The position numbers and the translations under genes were made by a program. DNA of 64,000 bases from the NCBI GenBank assembly GCA_015654835.1, contig JAATGG010000264.1, forward strand, positions 1 through 64,000, written 5' to 3'. This DNA comes from Terriglobales bacterium (GTDB taxonomy: Bacteria; Acidobacteriota; Terriglobia; Terriglobales; Acidobacteriaceae). The notes beneath the pieces are model-generated. The model was not told where the DNA came from. It saw only the letters and a program-made list of their open reading frames with translations, and did no database searches. Positions 6,745 through 63,015 of this stretch are shown one piece after another. The stretch's first letter is position 1, and the number at the start of each line of letters is the position of its first letter.

Positions 6745-6857
6745 TCCCGCCCTCTCTGGAAACTTATAGGAATTCTAAGCTCTTCCGCCGCAATTCTCCG
6801 CAAATTGCAGCCGGCTTTTCTCCACAGTACCTGATAGCGAGGATGAAACAATCCTCA

Positions 6858-8486
6858 TCACCCTCTCCGTCCTTCCAGCAGCTCCGCCCGTGCGCCCAGC
6901 CCGATCGCCATCGCCATCACCCGGTCGTCGTGCGTGCCCGCCCGCGCGCCCGTATTCCCGTCCGCCCCGCGCACAAAGCTCCTGCACTCCGCCAGCAGCC
7001 GCCGGCTCATAAACCGCTCCGGCTGCTCCACCAGCGCGGCATCCAGCCGCCCCAGCGCCGCCGGCCGGCTCATTGAGGTCGTCAGCCACCCCGGCTGCCC
7101 CGCCTGCCGATAGATCCGCGGATACTTGCAGACTGCTTCGGCCATCGCCAACACTCCGCTGCCGTGGTTGTTCCGCTCCACCACCAGCCACGCCTGGTTG
7201 TACTCGCCTGCCAGCTCCGTAACCAGCCGCGCCAGTTCCAGTCCGCCCACGTGCCCGGCAAACTCCGCACACTGCAACCCCGTCTCCAGGTCCAGTACCT
7301 CGGCTGCCGAGTAGTCGCCCTCGCTGCCCCCGCCCGCCGGATCCACCGCCACCAGGTATTCCTTGCCCTTCAGCGGGGGCAGCCAGATCTCCAGTTCCCC
7401 ATTCCGCCTCTGCGTTGCAGCCGGCAGCGCCGCCGCCAGCCGCGCCTCGATTGCCGCCAGTTCGAACACCGAGTTCCCGCTCGCCAGAAAGCAGCTCTCC
7501 GCGTCCTCGGCATACTCCTGCCGCGCCAACCCGCGGAAATTCGCGCGCACCTGCCGCCGAAACCCGATCTGCTCCAAATCCAGCCCCAACTCCAGCCCCA
7601 GTTCCCGCCCGAGCCGGTTCCGCGTCATCAGCGCCCGCTCCTCGTCCGTCAGGCTCGCCTCGGCCACGGCTTGGGCGCGATAGCGCGGCTCCATCCACCA
7701 TGGAAAGAAATGCCGCACCATCCCCGTCTCGCCCGCCTTCTGCCACTCCTCGTGAAAACAGCCCCCCACCCCGTCCGGCGTCGACTCCACAATCAGTTCC
7801 GCCCCTGGAGCCAGCGCCGCCCGCAGCCCCGCCAGCGTCTCTGCCGCATCGCCCGGCCAGCGTGCCAGCTCCGAGCAGTGCAGATTCTGCACCGTCAGCC
7901 CTCGCCCCGCGTTGCGGTCTCCCGCCGAAACCACCCGGTACTGCGAGTCCATCTCTGGAAACACCATCTGCCGCACGTTCGCCCGCGAAGTTCTCAGCGG
8001 ACCGGCGCGCAGTTCCCCCGGTAGCCACTCCAGAAACCGGTACACAATCCGGAAAATCTCCTCCGCCGCCTCCTGCGTATGCGCCACTTCCAGCGTCAGC
8101 GTTCCCGGCTGCGTAATCGTCTTCAGAAAAAATCGCGCCGCCGCCCACGTCGTCAATCCCATCTGCCGCGCCTTCAGCACAATGTTCCGCTCGCCCCGCC
8201 GCCGTTCGAACGCCCTCTGCGCCGCATTCGCCCTCAGCGGAGCCGTCCAGCCCTCCCGCGTCCTCACCAGCAGCAACTGCTCCGCCAGCGCCATGCCCAC
8301 CGTCCGTCCCCGCAAACTCGCCGGCCTCTGATCCAGAATCCTTCCGAACCGCTCCAGCTCCTCCGCATCCAATTCTTCCGGAGAAAGAATCCACTCCCGC
8401 GCTTCCTGCCCGGTTCCCTGTCCAGTTTCCCGCCCCGCTCCCCGCATAGCGCGCGCTCCATCCGCCGGGCCTCTCTCCTTTTGCAA
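6858..8486 (-). CDS. Phage terminase large subunit
   Basis: 542 aa; ERNIVLKARQMGLTTWAAARFFLKTI (Walker A-like), nuclease-domain motif YLVAVDPAGGGSEGDYSAAEV. Confidence 0.8.
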   Translation of the reverse strand: MQKERGPADGARAMRGAGRETGQGTGQEAREWILSPEELDAEELERFGRILDQRPASLRGRTVGMALAEQLLLVRTREGWTAPLRANAAQRAFERRRGERNIVLKARQMGLTTWAAARFFLKTITQPGTLTLEVAHTQEAAEEIFRIVYRFLEWLPGELRAGPLRTSRANVRQMVFPEMDSQYRVVSAGDRNAGRGLTVQNLHCSELARWPGDAAETLAGLRAALAPGAELIVESTPDGVGGCFHEEWQKAGETGMVRHFFPWWMEPRYRAQAVAEASLTDEERALMTRNRLGRELGLELGLDLEQIGFRRQVRANFRGLARQEYAEDAESCFLASGNSVFELAAIEARLAAALPAATQRRNGELEIWLPPLKGKEYLVAVDPAGGGSEGDYSAAEVLDLETGLQCAEFAGHVGGLELARLVTELAGEYNQAWLVVERNNHGSGVLAMAEAVCKYPRIYRQAGQPGWLTTSMSRPAALGRLDAALVEQPERFMSRRLLAECRSFVRGADGNTGARAGTHDDRVMAMAIGLGARAELLEGRRG

Positions 8487-8544
8487 CGATGCTCCGTTCC
8501 AAAACAGACAGAGGCCCAGCTCCCATCGCCGGCTTACTCCCGAT

Positions 8545-8952
8545 TTACTCTTTGTGCGTTATTGCTGCAATCAACAGGAGTCCACGCTTCTCGTCTGTCG
8601 TCCGGTTCCCGGCGTGCGTCTCAGTGTGGGCTTCATCCGTGGATCCCCCCACTTCGCCCGCCCACTCCGGTTCGGCCGCCAGTTCGCTCGCGGCGCTGTG
8701 CACACGCGACGGCTTCTCCGCCGCTCCGTTTCGTGCCGTCCTCTCCGCGAGTTCCATCAACAGGCGGGCGCTCTGCACATTCCCGCCCAGCGTGCTCTTC
8801 ACCAGGGACTCCGCAATCTCCGCACTGTTTTTTGAAAGCGCCTCGTCCGCGGCCTTGTTCATCTTTGCGCCGCCGCGGCTCGCCGCTTTCTTCTGCGAAC
8901 TCTTGCGTTTCCCCTTCTTGGCTACTGCAGTTTTCTGATTCGCTTCCACCAT
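8545..8952 (-). CDS. Hypothetical protein, possible small terminase / DNA-binding protein
   Basis: Internal start MVEANQKTAVAKKGKRKSSQKKAA; basic N-terminus, upstream of terL. Confidence 0.45.
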   Translation of the reverse strand: MVEANQKTAVAKKGKRKSSQKKAASRGGAKMNKAADEALSKNSAEIAESLVKSTLGGNVQSARLLMELAERTARNGAAEKPSRVHSAASELAAEPEWAGEVGGSTDEAHTETHAGNRTTDEKRGLLLIAAITHKE

Positions 8953-48965: not shown

Positions 48966-49042
48966 CGGGGAGTGGCTCAGCCTGGTAGAGCACCTGGTTC
49001 GGGACCAGGGGGTCGGAGGTTCGAATCCTCTCTCCCCGACCA
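48966..49042 (+). tRNA. tRNA-Pro(CGG) with encoded CCA
   Basis: cggggag...ctggttcgggaccag...gaggttcgaatcctc tctccccgacca; acceptor CGGGGAG/CTCCCCG; anticodon loop TTCGGGA. Confidence 0.95.
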
Positions 49043-49059
49043 TCTAAATCCCAATAAAA

Positions 49060-50247
49060 TCAGTTAATTAGCGAGTTCGCTGGTTCTGGCAGATTGGGAA
49101 CTTGGGTCCATTTGGGTCCAAGAATCAAATCCTCCACAGTTTGAACCGCGTTCTTTACGTCTGAAGGCACCGCCTCCAAATAAACCTCTCGCGTGATCTG
49201 CGAAGAGGAATGCCCCAACAACTCCTGCACCGCGCCTAGCGGAACTCCGGCAGAGCTGGATAGCGTTGCCGTTGCGTGACGCAGCCAGTGCCATGTGACG
49301 CCCTTCAAACCCAGCCGTTCACAGGTCGGCTTGAATTGCCGATTGAGCAGATTCCTCCGGCTCAGAGGCGTTCCTTTGCCCGTCGAGAAGACCAGGGCGT
49401 CGGGGTCAAGCCGTGACGGCTTCCACTGCTTCAAGACCTCGATGCCTTGCTTCCCCACAGGCACCGTCCGGCGGCTCCGCTTCGTCTTCGGATCGTCGAA
49501 CACGCCTTCATAAACGGTCTGCCGTACACGAATCATCCCAGCTTCGAGATCGACATCGCGCCAGCGAAGAGCGAGAAGTTCCCCAATGCGCATTCCCGTT
49601 GAACCCAACAGCAGTGCAATCGAGTGCGACGGTTCCGGCAGAGCTTGAAGCAAATCGCGAATCTTCCCCGGATCGATAGGCGTCTTTTCAGGCACCGGAC
49701 CACGGCGCGGAAAACGAGTCTTCGGGACCGGATTGGATGTGATGAGATCGTCATCCTCAGCGGCCTTCAGAATCGTTCCTAACGTTGTGCGCACATGCTT
49801 GACGGTTCTCCAAGACAGACCGGCCTTCAGCTTCCCCGAGAGAAAGCTCTGCACCGAGTCGCGAGTGATGAGCCGCAATTGCATGTCGCCGAGCGCTGGA
49901 ATCAGATGGCAGTTGACCACGTAATCGTAGTGCTGTCTGGTTGAGTGTTTGATCGTGGGCTGCACTTCCGGCCACCACCGATCCTGGATGAAGCTCTTCA
50001 ACGTCCAGGTCGATTGCGATCGATAGTCGCCGCTGTTAATCGAGCGAAGCCGGTCAGAAAGCACCTGCTGCGCTTCGCGGCGCGTGGGCATGTCGGCAAC
50101 AGGCCCGAGAACTTCAGAGCGTCGAAGCCGCCCTGTTTTCCCGTCCGGTCCGACGACAGTTTCCCACCAGCGAGCCACCCACACTTTTTGTCGCGTCCCT
50201 CTCTTGAAGAGAGAGCCTTGCTGAAAATGCCTGTTCTGGGCCATCAA
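49060..50247 (-). CDS. Tyrosine-type site-specific recombinase/integrase
   Basis: LLLGSTGMRIGELLALRWRDVDLE; HWLRHATATLSSSAGVPLGAVQELLGHSSSQITREVYLEA. Confidence 0.95.
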   Translation of the reverse strand: MMAQNRHFQQGSLFKRGTRQKVWVARWWETVVGPDGKTGRLRRSEVLGPVADMPTRREAQQVLSDRLRSINSGDYRSQSTWTLKSFIQDRWWPEVQPTIKHSTRQHYDYVVNCHLIPALGDMQLRLITRDSVQSFLSGKLKAGLSWRTVKHVRTTLGTILKAAEDDDLITSNPVPKTRFPRRGPVPEKTPIDPGKIRDLLQALPEPSHSIALLLGSTGMRIGELLALRWRDVDLEAGMIRVRQTVYEGVFDDPKTKRSRRTVPVGKQGIEVLKQWKPSRLDPDALVFSTGKGTPLSRRNLLNRQFKPTCERLGLKGVTWHWLRHATATLSSSAGVPLGAVQELLGHSSSQITREVYLEAVPSDVKNAVQTVEDLILGPKWTQVPNLPEPANSLIN

Positions 50248-50322: not shown

Positions 50323-50520
50323 CTACGCGCCATATTGATCCTGCAACCACTGCGTCACTGTTGCCGGATCGAAGCGCAGATACTTGCCGATTTTCAAGTG
50401 CGGGATGCGCTCGCGACTCCTACAGCGCGTACGTGCATAGACCCAAGTAACATGCACTTTCAAGAGTGCTGCCAGCTCATCCGCTGTCAAAAGATCGCCC
50501 AGAATGAACGCAGATGCCAT
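50323..50520 (-). CDS. AlpA/MerR-like helix-turn-helix protein, probable excisionase
   Basis: LLTADELAALLKVHVTWVYARTRCRSRERIPHLKIGKYLRFDPATVTQWLQ, directly upstream of the integrase. Confidence 0.85.
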   Translation of the reverse strand: MASAFILGDLLTADELAALLKVHVTWVYARTRCRSRERIPHLKIGKYLRFDPATVTQWLQDQYGA

Positions 50521-52530: not shown

Positions 52531-53397
52531 TCACAAGACCGTCTGCAGGACCTGACAGAGTAGATAGCACGCTGCCTCACTGAGAAGCAGGGCATAGTTC
52601 ACACTCTCGGTCTCTTGAGTCAGACAGACCCGTCGCGTAAGGTCAACCGGATACTTCTTATCCGCCGCTGCTGTGCGAAGGTCTGCGCCATGTGCGAGCT
52701 TGTTTCTGAGCACGAAGAGCGGAATGGCGATCTCTTCGACGGTGATTGTCGGTGCGTCAGGGTTCGCGTGCCAATTGGGAAATGCCAGTGTTTGCGGGCC
52801 AAGACAATCACACAACTTCCTTTTGAATTGTTCTTTACCTCCGCTATCGAAGATGGCCTCTAGTCCGGTGATCCATAGCAGGCCAGCGATGTACGGGTGG
52901 AAATGCTCTAGGCCGAGTTGCAGCAGCGTTAGCGCGTTCTTCTGCTCAATATTCTTGCCGTCCATCACTGGCTGTATGCGGTCGATCATGGCGGGCACGC
53001 GTGCCAGCATCGCGTCATCAAACTTGTTCATCATCGCCCACTGCCCCGGTTGCATTGGCGGGCGGCGTTCAATTTGCTGGCGCCTATAGATAAAGCCGAG
53101 CGTTCGTATTGGCTTGATCATTTGAATCGCCATCAAACCGGCGTAGAAGCGGTTTGCGCCACGTTCTGGGGCCGCATCCCATTCTCCGCCCGGTAACCAT
53201 TGAGGATATTCGCAAACAAGGTAGCGACTGGCCTTCGCTTCTTCCTCCATCTCCCCCTGTCCCTGTGCCCAATCCCAGCGAGATGCGAGGAGTTGGTCAT
53301 TGGGCCGCACCAACGAGAGGCCATCGCCTAATCGGATGAGATCGTCACCAGCTTTTGCGATTCCCAACAAAGCAGTGTGAATGGTTTCAGTACTCAT
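52531..53397 (-). CDS. HEPN (ApeA-like) domain protein candidate
   Basis: LEAIFDSGGKEQFKRKLCDCLG and FVLRNKLAHGADL, matching the HEPN RNxxxH motif. Confidence 0.65.
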   Translation of the reverse strand: MSTETIHTALLGIAKAGDDLIRLGDGLSLVRPNDQLLASRWDWAQGQGEMEEEAKASRYLVCEYPQWLPGGEWDAAPERGANRFYAGLMAIQMIKPIRTLGFIYRRQQIERRPPMQPGQWAMMNKFDDAMLARVPAMIDRIQPVMDGKNIEQKNALTLLQLGLEHFHPYIAGLLWITGLEAIFDSGGKEQFKRKLCDCLGPQTLAFPNWHANPDAPTITVEEIAIPLFVLRNKLAHGADLRTAAADKKYPVDLTRRVCLTQETESVNYALLLSEAACYLLCQVLQTVL

Positions 53398-53456
53398 ACT
53401 GAGAGCTTTCTGACCGGAGAGGCATTCGCAAGTCAAGATTCATTGTTGCGCGTCTG

Positions 53457-54734
53457 TCAGTTCTCCCATAATCCGCTGAGCGGAATTCCATGCAGATTTT
53501 CAGCGAATGGGATCACGCTCGTGCCTGTGTAGAGCACCACGCCGCGCACCCAATTCTTCCCAACCGCTTTTGACAGCGCGTCGAGGCCGCGCACATCGTT
53601 GCGTCCCAGGGTGGCTGACGCTTTGACCTCGATACCAACGACCCGACCGGCGCGATCTTCGAGCACGATATCGACCTCTTGGCCGGAGGCTGTGCGCCAA
53701 TAAAAAATCTCCGGCTGGGTCTCGCTCCATGCGGCTTGTTTGAATAGCTCCATGACAACGAAGTTCTCGAACAATGGCCCCACCAGATTCGTTTCGGCCT
53801 TTAGCCGATCCACAGTGAGGCCCAGCAGATAGGCCAATAGACCGGTGTCGTTTAGGTAGACCTTGGGTGTCTGAATGACTCGCTTGCCCAGGTTGCGCGC
53901 CCAGGGTCGCAGTAACTGCACAAGGTAGGTGGCCTCCAGCAGCGCGAAGTAGCGCTTCAGTGTGGTCTGTGGCAAAGAGACCGTGCGCGAGATGTCTGCA
54001 AAGTTGAGCAGACTGCCTGCTCGTGTTGCTATGACTGAAAGCAGACGAGGCAGAGCCGTAAGGTCGGCCACGTTCGCCAAGTCACGCACATCCCGTTGCA
54101 GGATGGTGGCGACGTAAGAGCGGAACCATGCCTCCCGCCGCGTTGCGCTTGAGCGCTCTACTGCGGAAGGATAGCCGCCCACGAGCGCCTTTTGGAGCAA
54201 TTCATCGCGTTGTGGTGTGGCCGCACGTGCAGCGGTCGGACGGAACTGCGGCGAGAAGAGCCCATCAATCAGCCCGTCGCGCCGTCCAGCCATCTCGCCC
54301 TGAGAGAAAGGCCAGAGCGTCAGAATCTCCATGCGCCCCGCCAAAGACTCGGAGATTTTTGGCAGCAGGAGCACGTTGGCCGAGCCGGTGAGAAGAAATT
54401 GGCCCGGTTGCCGCTTGCGGTCAATCGCGGCCTTGAGAACCGGAAAAATCTCAGGCGCATGCTGCACCTCATCCAGGGTGACGGGCAACGGCAAACCAGC
54501 GACAAAGCCGTTGGGGTCAGCCTTCGCCGCCGCCAGGAGGCCGGGATCGTCGAAGGTGAGGTATTGTCTTTGCTTCCCGACAACTTCGGCATCCTGTACG
54601 AGAGTGCTCTTGCCCGTCTGTCGAGCACCGTTCACCAGCACCGCTGGCGTATCCGCCAGGGCTTCCAGCAAACGCGGGGTTAGATTTCGCCGAAACATGA
54701 TGAGATTATCAACTATTTCGACGTCGATAATCAA
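53457..54734 (-). CDS. AAA ATPase with DUF4143 C-terminal domain
   Basis: LVNGARQTGKSTLVQ Walker A; YLTFDDPGLLAAAKADP; VTLDEVQHAPEIFPVLKAAID; FLLTGSANVLLLPKISESLAGR; FYWRTASGQEVDIVLE; alternative start at 54698 (MFRRNLTPRL). Confidence 0.92.
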   Translation of the reverse strand: MIIDVEIVDNLIMFRRNLTPRLLEALADTPAVLVNGARQTGKSTLVQDAEVVGKQRQYLTFDDPGLLAAAKADPNGFVAGLPLPVTLDEVQHAPEIFPVLKAAIDRKRQPGQFLLTGSANVLLLPKISESLAGRMEILTLWPFSQGEMAGRRDGLIDGLFSPQFRPTAARAATPQRDELLQKALVGGYPSAVERSSATRREAWFRSYVATILQRDVRDLANVADLTALPRLLSVIATRAGSLLNFADISRTVSLPQTTLKRYFALLEATYLVQLLRPWARNLGKRVIQTPKVYLNDTGLLAYLLGLTVDRLKAETNLVGPLFENFVVMELFKQAAWSETQPEIFYWRTASGQEVDIVLEDRAGRVVGIEVKASATLGRNDVRGLDALSKAVGKNWVRGVVLYTGTSVIPFAENLHGIPLSGLWEN

Positions 54735-54979: not shown

Positions 54980-55936
54980 ATGGCAAAAAGAAAAGCGGAG
55001 CGACCGCCGAAGAAAAGAACAATCACCCGCAAAGTTTTCTTCTATCGGGTTAATGCGGGCGTACATCCGGATACCGGAGCGCCTCGGGAAGTTGACCTTG
55101 GTCCAACTGTGCGGCGCATCCGAGACCTGCCGTTTACGAGTGAAGGGCGCTACCTAGATACCGCTGACGGGAAACAGATCTGCTGTTGGCCCGATACTTC
55201 TCAACCTCCGTATCGCATTCGCCTAGCGAATATCCGAAGGGGACAGTACCCACCAGTTGAGAACGCAGGCGAGTTTTCCCCGCTAGTGCTCGGCGCGGGC
55301 AAGGGACTTGCAGAAATAACACATCTTGTCCTCTTTCCCGGTGGGTATTGCGGGGCTGAATTTAACTTCTATGGCCCTCGCGCGTTTCAGCTTCCCATCT
55401 ATTTCGCTCTCAAGGTCCAGGGCTCTCTTCCGCTATTTCGGCTCAACCCAGTTGTTCGACCTGATCTAGAGAAGCGCCTCACCGAACTTAGCGACATTAA
55501 GCTACTCGACCTTAAGGTGCGTGCATCTTACGAGTCCATTCTCAAACAAGCAGATGCCGACCTCGGCGCTGCTCTTAATGCCAATATCAAAGCCGTGAAC
55601 GCGAGGCCTGAAGACGAATTCCAACTGATCTTTAAGCGGAGAAAGAACAAGAAACTCCCGTCGTTCAGCGTTCCCGAGCAACTGCTCAATGGGATACGAA
55701 GCCTAGCGAGGAGACCAGACCTTAAGGACAATGTGTCTATCTTCAAAGTTTGTGGAACTGGCAGTACAGATTCCCGATTTGTCGACATATTGCATGAACA
55801 GTTTGTTGCCGAAAGAGAAGTCGAGCCGGCTCTAGACCAATCGGGAGGAGTAGAGTCATCATCAATGTTCGAAGTGATCGAACAAGCCTATACCGAGATG
55901 CAGGAGCAGCTCTCTAAAGCCTCGGAAATCGAGTAG
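54980..55936 (+). CDS. Hypothetical protein, tentatively DUF6731-like; first gene of island two-gene module
   Basis: 318 aa; TRKVFFYRVNAGVHPDTGAPREVDLGPTVRRIRDLP...LVLFPGGYCGAEFNFYGPRAFQLPIYF. Confidence 0.75.
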   Translation: MAKRKAERPPKKRTITRKVFFYRVNAGVHPDTGAPREVDLGPTVRRIRDLPFTSEGRYLDTADGKQICCWPDTSQPPYRIRLANIRRGQYPPVENAGEFSPLVLGAGKGLAEITHLVLFPGGYCGAEFNFYGPRAFQLPIYFALKVQGSLPLFRLNPVVRPDLEKRLTELSDIKLLDLKVRASYESILKQADADLGAALNANIKAVNARPEDEFQLIFKRRKNKKLPSFSVPEQLLNGIRSLARRPDLKDNVSIFKVCGTGSTDSRFVDILHEQFVAEREVEPALDQSGGVESSSMFEVIEQAYTEMQEQLSKASEIE

Positions 55937-55939
55937 AAA

Positions 55940-56518
55940 ATGAGCCTGTCTTATCCAAATTGGTGGCGGAAGAATTTTCTCTTAGTGGAACTCTTCATCG
56001 CGCTATTGGCGACGGCGGGGCTCCTCTTGTGGTGCGTGCGGGGCAGTGGGCTGCAAGAACTCGAGAAACTTGTCCATGGGAATCGCGGTCAGATATATGG
56101 AACCCTTGCCTCCATTTGCGGCTCGCTCCTCGGGTTTGTCATTGCTACGTTATCCGTCGTCCTCGGCTTCAATACATCGAGACGCCTGGATGTCCTAAGA
56201 AAGAGCACGTACTACAAGCAGCTTTGGAGTGTCTTCACCTCTGCGATTCGAGTTCTTGCGTTCACCACCTGTGCTTGGCTCCTGGCGTTGTTCGTTGACC
56301 GAGATAGCAGCCCCAATCTCTTCATTCTTGTCCTCTGCTTCGGGGCTACATTTTTGGCAGTTTTGCGGTTGGGAAGGGCGGTGTGGGTTCTTGAAAGAAT
56401 TGTGGAAATCCTAACGGCTCCGGGTGCAGGTTTATCCGTGGAATCGTCTGAGCCTGCCCAGGCAGATGCTGTCAGCGGCAGCGGTCCCCCGTCGTCTCAG
56501 GCTGAGGAGATACAGTAA
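55940..56518 (+). CDS. Hypothetical multi-TM (about 4 TM) membrane protein; second gene of module
   Basis: 192 aa; hydrophobic segments LFIALLATAGLLLW, TLASICGSLLGFVIATLSVVLG, IRVLAFTTCAWLLALFV, LFILVLCFGATFLAVL; start 3 bp after the upstream stop. Confidence 0.75.
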   Translation: MSLSYPNWWRKNFLLVELFIALLATAGLLLWCVRGSGLQELEKLVHGNRGQIYGTLASICGSLLGFVIATLSVVLGFNTSRRLDVLRKSTYYKQLWSVFTSAIRVLAFTTCAWLLALFVDRDSSPNLFILVLCFGATFLAVLRLGRAVWVLERIVEILTAPGAGLSVESSEPAQADAVSGSGPPSSQAEEIQ

Positions 56519-56684
56519 GCAGCCCAGGCTCTAGGAAAACACTGAACCCCTAAGACAGCAATTTCATTCATGCGAACTCTTGGGTCCAACTTGGGTCCAA
56601 GTGCTGCCGAAAATCGTACAAAATCGGGGTACACGACGCAGTACCGACCTTGACGAATCAACAACTTAGCAAATCGGTTGTTGT

Positions 56685-56730
56685 TTCGGGACCAGGGGGT
56701 CGGAGGTTCGAATCCTCTCTCCCCGACCAT
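56685..56730 (+). repeat. attR: duplicated 3' part of tRNA-Pro
   Basis: 46-bp identity to 48998-49043; no 5' tRNA half upstream. Confidence 0.93.
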
Positions 56731-57664: not shown

Positions 57665-58054
57665 GTGAAACGTATACTCCTGGTCGAGGACCAACCGAAC
57701 GACATGCAGATTGCCGCCGGTCTGGCTCGTTCGGTCGGTATCACCGATATTGAGGCGCGCACCTCTTCGCGCGCTGCCCAAACCTATCTAGAAAAGGGCA
57801 TCCAAGGTGAAGTTCCTCTGCCCGACGGCATCGTTCTCGATCTCGATCTCGGTTACGAAAGCGGTTACGAGCTCCTGCGCTTCTGGCACAGCACCCCGGC
57901 CCTCTCTCAAATCCCCATGATTGTCTGGACCCTTCTCGGAGAAGAGCAGCGTGAAATCTGCCGCCTCTTCAAAGTCACCGTTTTTGCATCCAAGTGGGAG
58001 GGCACGACAGCCCTCAAGGATGCACTGACCAGGTTGGAACAATCCGCGCTCTAA
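57665..58054 (+). CDS. Single-domain response regulator (REC)
   Basis: MKRILLVEDQPNDMQIAAGLARSVG; GIVLDLDLGYESGYELLRFW. Confidence 0.9.
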   Translation: MKRILLVEDQPNDMQIAAGLARSVGITDIEARTSSRAAQTYLEKGIQGEVPLPDGIVLDLDLGYESGYELLRFWHSTPALSQIPMIVWTLLGEEQREICRLFKVTVFASKWEGTTALKDALTRLEQSAL

Positions 58055-58206
58055 CTGCCGGAGAGCCGCGCTCCTGATCGGCTTCCGCATGTCCCTTGCG
58101 GCTCGCTGCTTTTGTCCCCACCTGCCGCCTCAACTCACAATTTGCCTGTATCAACTGGACACTGAGTAGATAAGCAGTTCCCGTATGCTGCCCGAAGGAG
58201 GGCTCA

Positions 58207-59097
58207 ATGAGCGATTTGGCTGAAATTATTTCCCGGAACGAAGCACAGATCCATGCGGAGTGGATCCGTGGCATGGGAAGATCCACACAACGGACCGACC
58301 TGATCAGCAAGGCGGAACTGGAAGAGCAATGCGGCACGATCCTGGGTTCCATCGTGGCCGGTGTCCGCAGCGGCGGCGCCACCGAAATCACCGGTCCCGG
58401 CTGGGCCGCCGCCCGTGAGCTGCTGCAGGAGATTTCCTCCTCACGCGCTCGCCAGGGCTTCTCCCCCGTCGAAGTCGCGACCTTTGTCCTATCTCTGAAG
58501 CAGCCTCTCTTCGCAGCCATCCGCCGCGATCTCACCAAAACGCCCGACAAGCTGTTCGATACCGTCTGGATCGCCACCGAGCTGCTCGACCGCCTGGCGC
58601 TGCTCACCAGCGAAACTTTCATGTCCACTCGTGAAGAGCTGATCTCCCGCCAGCAGCAGGAGTTGCTTGAACTCTCCACCCCCGTCGTCAAGCTCTGGGA
58701 TGGCATTCTCGCTCTCCCCATCATCGGCACCCTCGACAGCGCCCGCACCCAGGTCGTCATGGAAAACCTGCTCCAGAGCGTCGTCGCCACCAACTCCCGC
58801 TACGCCATCATCGATATCACCGGCGTTCCGACCGTCGATACCCTGGTCGCCCAGCACCTGCTCAAAACCATCACCGCCGCCCGCCTCATGGGTGCCGAAT
58901 GCATCATCAGCGGTGTACGTCCCCAGATCGCGCAGACCATCGTCCACCTCGGCATCAATCTTGAAGACGTCATCACCAAGGCCAAATTGTCCGACGCCTT
59001 TGCCCTGGCCCTCAAGCGCAGCGGTCGCACCGTCGTCCGCATTTCTTCCACCGATGGCACACCCGCCGGTGGCCTGCTGACCAGCCGGGAGGGCTAA
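58207..59097 (+). CDS. rsbR: RsbR-type stressosome protein (RsbRD-like N-domain + STAS)
   Basis: STAS motif YAIIDITGVPTVDTLVAQHLLKTITAARLMGAECIISGVRPQIAQTIVHLG. Confidence 0.92.
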   Translation: MSDLAEIISRNEAQIHAEWIRGMGRSTQRTDLISKAELEEQCGTILGSIVAGVRSGGATEITGPGWAAARELLQEISSSRARQGFSPVEVATFVLSLKQPLFAAIRRDLTKTPDKLFDTVWIATELLDRLALLTSETFMSTREELISRQQQELLELSTPVVKLWDGILALPIIGTLDSARTQVVMENLLQSVVATNSRYAIIDITGVPTVDTLVAQHLLKTITAARLMGAECIISGVRPQIAQTIVHLGINLEDVITKAKLSDAFALALKRSGRTVVRISSTDGTPAGGLLTSREG

Positions 59098-59493
59098 ATG
59101 GAACGCATCCCCGTCCTTCGCATGGGTTCTCTTCTCCTGATCACCATCCAGGTGGATATGCATGACAAACTCGCCCTCCAGCTTCAGGACGATGTCACCC
59201 AGCGCATCGCCGACTGGGGCTCCACAGGCGTGCTGATCGATATCTCGTCTCTTGAAATCGTCGACTCGTTCATTGGCCGCATGCTTGCGAATATCGCCGC
59301 CATGTCGCGGGTTCTGGGAGCGGAAACCGTCGTCGTGGGGATGCAGCCCGCGGTGGCCATCACGCTGGTCGAACTCGGCATGTCGCTGCCCGGCGTACGT
59401 ACCGCGCTGAGCGTCGAAGCGGGAATGGAGCTGCTCTACGGAGCGGTTTCCGGACTGCAGTCTGGATCCGATAATGAGCCTGACCAGGACTGA
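59098..59493 (+). CDS. rsbS: RsbS-type STAS protein
   Basis: VLIDISSLEIVDSFIGRMLANIAAMSRVLGAETVVVGMQPAVAITLVELG. Confidence 0.93.
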   Translation: MERIPVLRMGSLLLITIQVDMHDKLALQLQDDVTQRIADWGSTGVLIDISSLEIVDSFIGRMLANIAAMSRVLGAETVVVGMQPAVAITLVELGMSLPGVRTALSVEAGMELLYGAVSGLQSGSDNEPDQD

Positions 59494-59878
59494 AGTGATG
59501 CCCCTCAAAACCTCGAACGATGTCGTCCTTGCCCGCCAAAAAGTGCGGCAGTGGGCCATCGAGCTCCGCTTCAGCCTGGTCGATCAGACCAAGCTCGTCA
59601 CCGCGGCAAGCGAGCTGGGCCGTAACGCTCTCGATCATGGCAAGGGCGGTCAAATGTCCATCGAACAAATCACCACCGGCGTAAAAGTCGGCCTCCGGCT
59701 GGTCTTTGAAGATCAGGGCCCCGGTATTCCCGACATTCAGCAGGCCCTCAAAGATGGATACACGACGGCTTCGGGTATGGGACTCGGCCTGGGCGGCAGC
59801 AAACGCCTCGTCAACGAATTCAGCATCGAATCCGAAGTGGGGAAAGGTACGAAAATTACGGTCGTCCGATGGAAGTAG
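59474..59878 (+). CDS. rsbT: RsbT-type GHKL serine kinase
   Basis: ELRFSLVDQTKLVTAASELGRNALDHGKGG; FEDQGPGIPDIQQALKDGYTTASGMGLGLGGSKRLVNEFSIES. Confidence 0.93.
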   Translation: MSLTRTEVMPLKTSNDVVLARQKVRQWAIELRFSLVDQTKLVTAASELGRNALDHGKGGQMSIEQITTGVKVGLRLVFEDQGPGIPDIQQALKDGYTTASGMGLGLGGSKRLVNEFSIESEVGKGTKITVVRWK

Positions 59879-60861
59879 CCTTCACGGAATGGGTTCCGGT
59901 CACTGACTCGAGTTCCGTCGGCGAAGTCCGCCGCACGGCTCTGTTGGCCGCTCAACGCCTGGAATTCGATGAAACCCGCTCCGGCGAGTTTGCCTTGCTC
60001 GCCACCGAAGCCTCCCGCAACGCCCTCATCCATGGTGGCGGAGGCCAGGTCGTCTTCAGCGGCCTCAAAGATGGCCGCGGCGCCCTCGGCTACATCCTCG
60101 CCATGGATAAAGGCGCCGGCATTCCCAACGTTGCCCTTGCCATGAGTGACGGCTACTCCACCGCCGGCACCATGGGCGGCGGCATGGGCGCCATGAAGCG
60201 CATCGCCAGCACCCTCGAAATCTTCACCGGTCGCACCGGCACCGTCGTCCTCGTGCAAATCGGCAAAGTCACTCCCGGTGACGGCCTCCAGATCGCAGGC
60301 ATGGCCGTTCCCTATCCCGGCGAACGCTTCTGCGGCGACGCCTGGACAGTGCATCGCACCCCCGAACGCACCGTAGCCCTCGCCGTCGATGGCCTCGGCC
60401 ACGGATGGGAAGCTGCCGAAGCCGCGCAGGAGGCCGTCGCCACCTTCCGCAAACGCGCCGACTCCGGCCCCGGCGACATTCTCGGCTATGTGCACGACGC
60501 CCTCAAAAAAACCCGCGGCGCCGTCGCCGCCGTCGCCGAAATCCGGCCCCGTGACAAAACTCTCGTCTACGCCGGCATCGGCAACATCGCCGCCGTCGTG
60601 CTTTCCGGCGGCGCCTCGCGCAGCCTCGTCTCCCACAACGGCACCCTCGGCGTCACCATCGCCCGGATTCAGGAGTTCAAATCCGACTGGCCCTCCGACG
60701 CCGTTCTCGTCCTTCACTCCGACGGCCTTCAGTCCCGGTGGGATCTCGCTCCCTACCCCGGCCTCCTCGCCCGCCACCCCGCGGTCATCGGCGGCGTCCT
60801 GCTCCGCGATTTTCGTCGTCAGCGGGACGATGCCAGCGTGATCGTCATCAAAGCTGTTTGA
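59869..60861 (+). CDS. GHKL-like domain + SpoIIE/RsbX-like PP2C phosphatase
   Basis: N-terminal LATEASRNALIHGGGG...DKGAGIPNV; C-terminal VALAVDGLGHGWEAAEAAQEAV and SDAVLVLHSDGLQSRWD. Confidence 0.88.
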   Translation: MEVAFTEWVPVTDSSSVGEVRRTALLAAQRLEFDETRSGEFALLATEASRNALIHGGGGQVVFSGLKDGRGALGYILAMDKGAGIPNVALAMSDGYSTAGTMGGGMGAMKRIASTLEIFTGRTGTVVLVQIGKVTPGDGLQIAGMAVPYPGERFCGDAWTVHRTPERTVALAVDGLGHGWEAAEAAQEAVATFRKRADSGPGDILGYVHDALKKTRGAVAAVAEIRPRDKTLVYAGIGNIAAVVLSGGASRSLVSHNGTLGVTIARIQEFKSDWPSDAVLVLHSDGLQSRWDLAPYPGLLARHPAVIGGVLLRDFRRQRDDASVIVIKAV

Positions 60862-60864
60862 CCT

Positions 60865-63015
60865 ATGTCCGTTTCCATCTTCCATCTCGCCCTGCGCACC
60901 GAACGCGACGTCGTTCAAGCCCGTCAGCGCGCCCGCGAAGTGGCCGCCGAACTGGGCCTCGATAACCAGGACCAGATCCGCATGGCCACCGCCACCTCCG
61001 AGATTGCCCGCAACGCCTTCCGTTACGCGCGCGGCGGCAAAGTCACCTTCTCCGTCGGACTCGAACCTCCGCAATTTCTGGAGGTCATGGTGTCGGACTC
61101 CGGACCCGGCATCGATAATCTCGACGAAATCCTCGAAGGCCGCTATAAGTCCGATACCGGCCTCGGCATGGGCATCATCGGAACCCGCCGCCTCATGGAC
61201 CAGTTCGAGATCGAGGTCGGTCCCGAAGGCACCACCGTCCGCATGGCCAAGCGCATCCCCTCCCACCAGGCCTGGACCCTGCGCACCGTCCACGACCTCA
61301 ACCAGAAAATGCAGGCCCGCGCTCCCGATAATCCCTACGAAGAAATCGAGCAGCAAAATCAGGAGCTGCTCAAGACCCTGCAGGAACTGCGCGCCCGTCA
61401 GGAAGAGTTGGAGCTGCTCAACCGCGAGCTTGAAGACACCAACCGCGGCGTCGTCGCCCTCTACGCCGAGCTAGACGAGCGCGCCGACTATCTCCGCCGC
61501 GCCTCCGAGCTCAAAACCAAGTTCCTCTCCAACGTCTCCCACGAATTCCGCACCCCGCTCAACTCCATCATTTCCCTCGCGCGCCTGCTCATGGATAAGT
61601 TCGACGGCGATCTGAGTCCGGAGCAGATGAAGCAGGTCCGCTTCATCGAGTCCTCGGCCCGCGACCTGCAGGAAATGGTCAACGATCTGCTCGATCTGGC
61701 CAAGGTGGAAGCCGGAAAAATCCGCATCCGCACCAAGCGCTTCGAGGTGCAGGAACTGTTCAGCGCCCTCAAGGGGATGCTCAAGCCCCTGCTCGCCGAC
61801 AATAACTCCGTCGACCTCATTTTTGAGGACGCTCCCGACCTGCCGCCGTTGCACACCGACGAGGGCAAAGTCTCGCAGATCCTCAGAAACCTCATCTCCA
61901 ACGCCCTCAAATTCACCCCCAAGGGCCAGGTAACCGTCTCCGCCCGCGCGGCTGAAAAAAACGAGATCCTGTTCATCGTTGCGGATACCGGCATCGGCAT
62001 CGCCCCCGAGCACCACGACACCATCTTCCGCGAATTCAGCCAGGTCGAGAACCCCTTACAGGAGCGCCATCGCGGCACCGGCCTCGGCCTGCCCCTCTGC
62101 CGCAACCTGTCCATGCTGCTCGGCGGCCGTCTCTGGCTTGAGAGCGAGGAGGGCAACGGCTCCACCTTCTTCGTCCAGATTCCCGCAGCCTACGTCGGCG
62201 AATCCGTCCGCCCTGAAGACACCGTCTCGCTGCCCGCGCCCGAGTTCCACCGCGCCCCCGTCCTCCTGCTTGAAGACAACGCCGAAACCGCCCATCTCTT
62301 CGAGTCGCACCTGCGCAACTCCGAGTTCCAGCCCATCCTTGCCTCCACCGTCGCGCAGGCCGAGGTCTGGACCGCCCGTCACAGCCCGGCCGCCGTCGTC
62401 AGCGATATCTACATCGGCGAAGACACGGCCTGGGGCTTCATCGCCCGCCTGCGCGAACGCTGGCCCGACCTGCCCCTCGTCGTCACCAGCATCTTCGAGG
62501 AGTCGCAGGCCGCCCTCTCCCGCGGCGCAAATCTCTTCCTCCCCAAGCCGCTCGACCGCGATCTGCTGCTACGCGAGTTGCGCCGGCTCACCGAGCACAC
62601 GGGAACCCGCCGCCTGCTCATCGTCGATGACAATGAAGTCTCGCGCTACATCCTCCGCGAGCTTCTCGATCAGCCCTGGCTCGATATCCGCGAGGCCGGC
62701 AGCGGCACCGCGGCCCTCGTCGCGCTCGATGAAAGTCTGCCTGACGCCCTGGTCCTCGACCTCCTCATGCCCGACATCAGCGGCTTCGAGGTCCTCCGCC
62801 GACTCCGCGCCAATCCCGCCACGGAAAATCTGCCGGTGCTGGTCTATACCTCCAAGCCTCTCTCCGAGCCCGAAAGAGCCCAGCTTGAGGCCCTTCGCAC
62901 CCGCATCGTCCGCAAAGAAGATGTCTCCACACGGCTCTCCGCTCAGCCTTTCTTGGACTGGCTCAGGACCCTCGGCATGGCGCCTGATATCCCCGCTCCG
63001 GAGCAAAATGTCTGA
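60865..63015 (+). CDS. Hybrid sensor kinase: RsbT-like GHKL domain, HisKA/HATPase and two REC domains
   Basis: RMATATSEIARNAFRYARGGKVTF; LKTKFLSNVSHEFRTPLNSIISLARL; VLLLEDNAETAHLFES; RRLLIVDDNEVSRYILREL...DALVLDLLMPDISGFEVLRRL. Confidence 0.93.
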   Translation: MSVSIFHLALRTERDVVQARQRAREVAAELGLDNQDQIRMATATSEIARNAFRYARGGKVTFSVGLEPPQFLEVMVSDSGPGIDNLDEILEGRYKSDTGLGMGIIGTRRLMDQFEIEVGPEGTTVRMAKRIPSHQAWTLRTVHDLNQKMQARAPDNPYEEIEQQNQELLKTLQELRARQEELELLNRELEDTNRGVVALYAELDERADYLRRASELKTKFLSNVSHEFRTPLNSIISLARLLMDKFDGDLSPEQMKQVRFIESSARDLQEMVNDLLDLAKVEAGKIRIRTKRFEVQELFSALKGMLKPLLADNNSVDLIFEDAPDLPPLHTDEGKVSQILRNLISNALKFTPKGQVTVSARAAEKNEILFIVADTGIGIAPEHHDTIFREFSQVENPLQERHRGTGLGLPLCRNLSMLLGGRLWLESEEGNGSTFFVQIPAAYVGESVRPEDTVSLPAPEFHRAPVLLLEDNAETAHLFESHLRNSEFQPILASTVAQAEVWTARHSPAAVVSDIYIGEDTAWGFIARLRERWPDLPLVVTSIFEESQAALSRGANLFLPKPLDRDLLLRELRRLTEHTGTRRLLIVDDNEVSRYILRELLDQPWLDIREAGSGTAALVALDESLPDALVLDLLMPDISGFEVLRRLRANPATENLPVLVYTSKPLSEPERAQLEALRTRIVRKEDVSTRLSAQPFLDWLRTLGMAPDIPAPEQNV

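Follow-up and report, generated by a model that had tools for sequence, protein, structure and literature searches.

A small genomic island at a tRNA-Pro gene of an acidobacterium carries, just inside its right border, a pair of adjacent genes that probably encodes a divergent RexAB-type exclusion (abortive-infection) system. The pair lies in a 64,000-nucleotide stretch of a Terriglobales bacterium (assembly GCA_015654835.1, contig JAATGG010000264.1, positions 1 to 64,000), hereafter the window, and consists of a gene for a soluble protein, A, followed by a gene for a small membrane protein, B, with four transmembrane (TM) helices. We favour this identity because sequence profiles, the predicted fold and the gene order all point to RexA and RexB. 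RexAB is a classic exclusion system that features in Benzer's rII work, and to our knowledge the trigger of the phage lambda version is still not known.

Gene A (54980..55936, plus strand, ATG start and TAG stop) encodes a RexA-like soluble protein of 318 amino acids, the putative infection sensor, which has no hydrophobic stretch. Gene B (55940..56518, plus strand, ATG start) encodes a RexB-like inner-membrane protein of 192 amino acids, the putative pore or effector, whose four hydrophobic stretches (residues 11-38, 51-80, 97-120 and 123-151) are matched by long helices (7-34, 49-77, 91-119 and 127-159) in its AlphaFold2 model (mean predicted local distance difference test score, pLDDT, 80.9). 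A first-pass annotation of this DNA had described the same soluble and four-TM open reading frames (ORFs) 3 bp apart, with exactly these coordinates. The gap consists of three bases, AAA (55937..55939, plus strand), pointing to one transcript and coupled translation; in the relatives the junction is either an overlap of 4-17 bases or a gap of up to 18, and the stop of A overlaps the start of B in most loci. The NFYGP motif of A (residues 129-133) is invariant in the family, and the protein is predicted to adopt a two-domain fold of RdgC/RexA type. In B, TM2 contains a conserved GSLLGF-like stretch, TM1 carries an acidic residue (D in an archaeal virus, E elsewhere) and TM4 an invariant R. Both are evidently real genes, since relatives at 24-44% identity retain both frames and their pairing in nine other loci.

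Ten loci carry the family, the window included, and in all ten A precedes B on the same strand. They are spread over Acidobacteriota, Chloroflexi, Actinomycetota, Alphaproteobacteria, two viral-contig loci and an archaeal virus. The bacterial loci belong to metagenome-assembled genomes (MAGs) of Holophagales (L002/L005), Vicinamibacteria (L006), Blastococcus (L007) and two Chloroflexi (L008, L009), and to Acetobacteraceae AT-5844 (L004); the viral ones are contigs L010 and L011 (L012 is the same sequence as L011, and the two were counted as one locus) and Geoglobus ahangari pleomorphic virus 1 (GahPV1; L003), in which A is gp18. Relatives of A share 26-36% identity with the window protein, and those of B 24-44%. 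On the phage contig L011 the pair sits between tail genes, with baseplate J upstream, and holin/lysozyme, while a tyrosine integrase lies near the Blastococcus pair, a CAP12/Pycsar-type TIR protein is encoded downstream of the Vicinamibacteria pair, and in L005 an HSP90-like ATPase together with a phosphoesterase is encoded upstream of the pair and an Xre/MbcA-like antitoxin downstream of it. The proposal of a membrane-linked, two-gene module of defence type on a mobile island is thus borne out by the ten-out-of-ten linkage, by the att sites and by the presence of A in only one of 80 genomes of the genus. The companion expectation, that homologues would be linked and lie outside core-genome settings, holds fully for linkage and for most contexts, which are viral, mobile or defence-like, yet the two Chloroflexi loci are chromosomal. 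No plasmid homologues of the pair were found, GahPV1 was the only homologue in an annotated phage or virus, and further scans for viral relatives yielded nothing past the contigs already in hand. By eye, the Acetobacteraceae pair (L004, 3937-6021) adjoins a fragment resembling an IS5-type transposase, among purine-synthesis genes.

The similarity of A to RexA emerges at the level of profiles. PADLOC RexA matches occur in five of the ten family members and are weak (best 8.5e-4), and hhalign aligns the A family profile to lambda-type RexA with an E-value of 5.1e-5 over 168 columns. Since hhalign E-values refer to single pairs, a decoy comparison was run, for which the decoys were drawn from the window and the family loci: against 124 ORFs of similar size, four phage lambda-type RexA proteins outrank every unrelated decoy, a truncated copy of A itself being disregarded, and all 201 shuffled or reversed versions of lambda RexA fall short of the RexA score. 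Residues of A coincide with those invariant among lambda-type RexA proteins, namely GP 132-133 (lambda 109-110), P157 and R160 (136 and 139), and D269 and L271 (226 and 228). A search of PDB sequences with A and B gave nothing useful, and the weak matches to AmbP1 (0.037) and a ribosomal protein (0.31) were dismissed.

The predicted fold of A leads to the same protein. When an AlphaFold2 model (pLDDT 79.7), built from nine sequences with the GahPV1 row left out, was compared with the PDB by Foldseek, lambda RexA (8TWQ) was the sole entry below 1e-3 (1.3e-5 and 2.7e-5), with a probability of 1.00 over 323 alignment columns. The next matches were RdgC (0.019) and then the kinetochore protein CHL4 (0.028), both of which are structural relatives reported for RexA itself (PMC11077077). 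A comparison with predicted viral proteins gave an uncharacterised siphovirus protein as the top match (1.9e-14, template-modelling (TM) score 0.67) and a recombination-associated protein of RdgC type at rank 7. Foldseek with B returned only generic helical bundles.

For B the evidence comes from sequence profiles: the window protein matches PADLOC RexB at 5.3e-6, such matches occur in seven of the ten family members, and hhalign gives 3.5e-4 for B against lambda-type RexB. In a decoy test with 18 small multi-TM ORFs, a small set, the top scores went to RexB proteins and to the TM partner encoded on another viral contig, L016, which is taken up below.

Set beside lambda RexAB, the pair has the same order, soluble gene first and TM gene second, in ten out of ten loci; RexA is its best and sole significant PDB fold match, the GP, PxxR and DxL motifs are common to both, and the four-TM partners have a similar TM2. 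Unlike the lambda proteins, to which A is only about 12-17% identical, window A has 318 instead of 279 residues, with a longer N-terminus and the NFYGP motif, and B has 192 instead of 144, its TM1 and TM4 bearing conserved charged residues. The Pseudomonas putida system RexABpp (PP_5643/PP_5644), which is prophage-encoded and has the best-tested mechanism, was identified by similar evidence, an HHpred match to RexA and a four-TM partner without recognised homologues, and is likened to the window pair by description, not by sequence (PMC12894663); it differs in having a CI-like repressor gene upstream, at a distance of two genes. The Rex-like systems of actinophages, for which exclusion has been tested experimentally (Sbash gp30/31, CarolAnn gp44/43, Butters gp30/31), likewise combine a soluble with a small multi-TM protein, and in Sbash and CarolAnn the soluble gene comes first; the Sbash, CarolAnn and Sejanus proteins, by contrast, have no detectable sequence similarity to the A-B family. 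The actinophage RexA and RexB were tried as a bridge to lambda and set aside, with no detectable similarity to either the A-B family or lambda; in sequence the A-B family lies nearer to lambda than actinophage Rex does, because the latter shows no detectable similarity to lambda in the same test.

Several observations weigh against a RexAB identity. Window A alone has no significant match in Pfam, PADLOC, NCBIfam, PHROGs or PDB sequences, and where lambda RexA has the DNA-contact residues R219 and K221 it has K255 and C257, only a partial match, in a stretch where the alignment is uncertain. The Foldseek TM-score of A against RexA is low (0.37-0.41) despite the good E-value, a discrepancy that domain rotation, as proposed in PMC11077077, could account for. 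The hhalign match between B and RexB is restricted to TM2 (47 columns), and B reaches only 15.9 bits (E 0.019) where the gathering score of Pfam RexB (PF15968) is 27; judged by that score, B is a relative outside the curated Pfam family. No CI-type repressor lies beside the window pair, whose neighbour is a divergent AAA ATPase; the rex genes of Sbash and Butters are likewise away from the repressor. Finally, the two Chloroflexi MAGs share the chromosomal neighbourhood of the pair, which seems stable, so that the pair looks inherited there rather than recently mobile.

By analogy with the studied systems, the window pair would have defence activity. Lambda RexA binds DNA non-specifically and interacts with RexB. 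P. putida RexAB protects against phage, its RexA binds DNA and self-associates, and excess RexA leads to RexB-dependent growth arrest and membrane permeability, with RexB damaging membranes under RexA overexpression and suppressors of excess RexA mapping to rexB (PMC12894663). On this pattern A, with its RdgC-type fold, would be expected to form a dimer that clamps DNA, and upon infection it may recognise phage replication DNA or a DNA-protein complex. It would then switch on B, the RexB-like four-TM protein, which upon activation may oligomerise into a pore and break membrane integrity. The predicted outcome is a growth stop and an aborted infection, from which both the population and the resident mobile island would profit.

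The same pairing can be read with the roles exchanged, A being a toxic antiviral effector of RexA-type fold that B restrains at the membrane until infection. Mycobacteriophage Butters gp30/gp31 operates in this way, as described in PMC12894663, and the tight linkage and frequent overlap of A and B suit B equally well whether it neutralises A or is activated by it. The TM protein is nevertheless the effector in the lambda, CarolAnn, Sbash and P. putida systems, and the family matches lambda-type RexA and RexB better than it does the actinophage proteins, which renders an exchange of roles rather unlikely. Regulation of the mobile element itself, with A binding DNA to tune the element's expression, excision or lysis decision, B modulating A and exclusion arising as a by-product, finds an argument in GahPV1, where an HxlR-type regulator gene stands immediately upstream of the pair. 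It is distinctly unlikely all the same: on the window island no repressor gene adjoins the pair, the integrase and HTH_17 protein being about 4.5 kb off, at several other loci no mobile-element regulator is evident next to the pair, and a four-TM partner is hard to account for by regulation alone. The parallel with Kiwa drawn in the first-pass annotation, in effect a reversed pair of the membrane protein KwaA and its DNA-binding partner KwaB, is scarcely tenable and was rejected on profiles and gene order, for although the sizes are alike (a TM protein of about 190 and a soluble one of about 300 amino acids) and genuine KwaA/KwaB pairs exist in genomes of the same family, the likeness stops at size and the soluble-plus-TM layout, with no sequence similarity, KwaA/KwaB PADLOC matches in none of ten members, neither a PADLOC nor a Pfam match to KwaB (PF16162) among A family members, hhalign values of 0.079 against KwaB and 0.52 against KwaA, and the opposite order, soluble gene first.

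The RexAB reading also bears on a Pfam family, DUF6731 (PF20505), whose entry has no recorded function. A had been called DUF6731-like, which holds for the family and not for the window protein: three of the ten members match (best 2.7e-6), GahPV1 gp18 exceeding the cut-off of 27 with 27.6 bits and L011 falling just under it with 26.1, whereas window A has no Pfam match up to E 10, DUF6731 included. On the viral contig L016 (4891-6318) a clear DUF6731 protein (3.3e-15) precedes a RexB-like TM protein of 148 amino acids, and on this evidence DUF6731 looks like a broader family of RexA-like proteins. The DUF6731 profile had no matches across 396 genomes of the phylum; in the control genome of Methanocaldococcus jannaschii it scores below the cut-off.

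The host of GahPV1, Geoglobus, is a hyperthermophilic archaeon, and the occurrence of the same pair in an archaeal pleolipovirus is most likely the part of these results most apt to surprise specialists. In that genome the HxlR-type regulator is directly upstream of the gp18-gp19 pair. The segment gp17-gp19 (6824-8683), annotated as a generic regulator and hypothetical proteins, resembles lambda cI-rexA-rexB in its arrangement. A broader proposal, which stops just short of being probable, is that RexAB forms a cross-domain superfamily of virus-exclusion systems, with a lambda-like regulator-rexA-rexB arrangement in GahPV1 and a wider membership of DUF6731 proteins with TM partners, spread across phyla by phages, archaeal viruses and tRNA islands. 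Only five RexAB systems have been described experimentally (PMC12894663), and the mechanism may be far commoner than the few tested cases imply. The system had been put forward as uncharacterised, which is apt for its lineage, of which no description or test was found, and not for its kind, since profiles, predicted fold and gene order point to RexA/RexB exclusion. Among the papers searched, there was no mention of DUF6731 or PDC-M67, and RexA, RexB and KwaB were not treated together in any. A separate lineage with strongly conserved NFYGP (A) and GSLLGF (B) motifs in several bacterial phyla and an archaeal virus offers positions to mutate and hosts to compare, and it supplies a functional hypothesis for the unannotated DUF6731 and for the pleolipovirus hypothetical proteins gp18 and gp19.

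The island that carries the pair is 7.7 kb long and lies at the tRNA-Pro gene (48966-49042). Its attL is the 3' half of that gene (48995..49043, plus strand) and its attR a 49-bp direct repeat (56682..56730, plus strand) identical to attL at 48 of 49 positions. The uninterrupted site is found in another genome of the genus (G388/L039), where the left flank, tRNA-Pro and the right-flank terminator are contiguous; the terminator directly follows tRNA-Pro there and lies beyond attR in the window. The direct repeat and this empty site confirm the earlier placement of the pair as the last genes before attR. The GC content of the island is 55%, against 61.5% for the remaining window, and A is present in two of 396 genomes of the phylum.

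Beside attL the island encodes a tyrosine integrase (49060..50247, minus strand; Phage_integrase 3.2e-26), followed by a small excisionase-like HTH_17 protein (50323..50520, minus strand). The divergently transcribed neighbour of the pair is an AAA_14/DUF4143 ATPase (53457..54734, minus strand) that matches the PADLOC candidate PDC-S01 at 2.4e-163 and was not seen adjoining the pair at the other loci. Next to this ATPase, a 301-amino-acid protein (52531-53436, minus strand) has no match in Pfam, PADLOC, NCBIfam or PHROGs. In many relatives within the genus (e.g. G500:C7, G532 and G528) the 3' half of tRNA-Pro, about 49 bp, is present in several additional copies, which suggests that this tRNA is a hot spot where elements integrate repeatedly in the genus. 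To the right of the island (57665-63015, plus strand) follow signalling ORFs that, judged by eye, resemble a stressosome cluster, with response-regulator-like proteins, RsbR/RsbS-like STAS proteins, anti-sigma-type ATPases and a hybrid histidine kinase.
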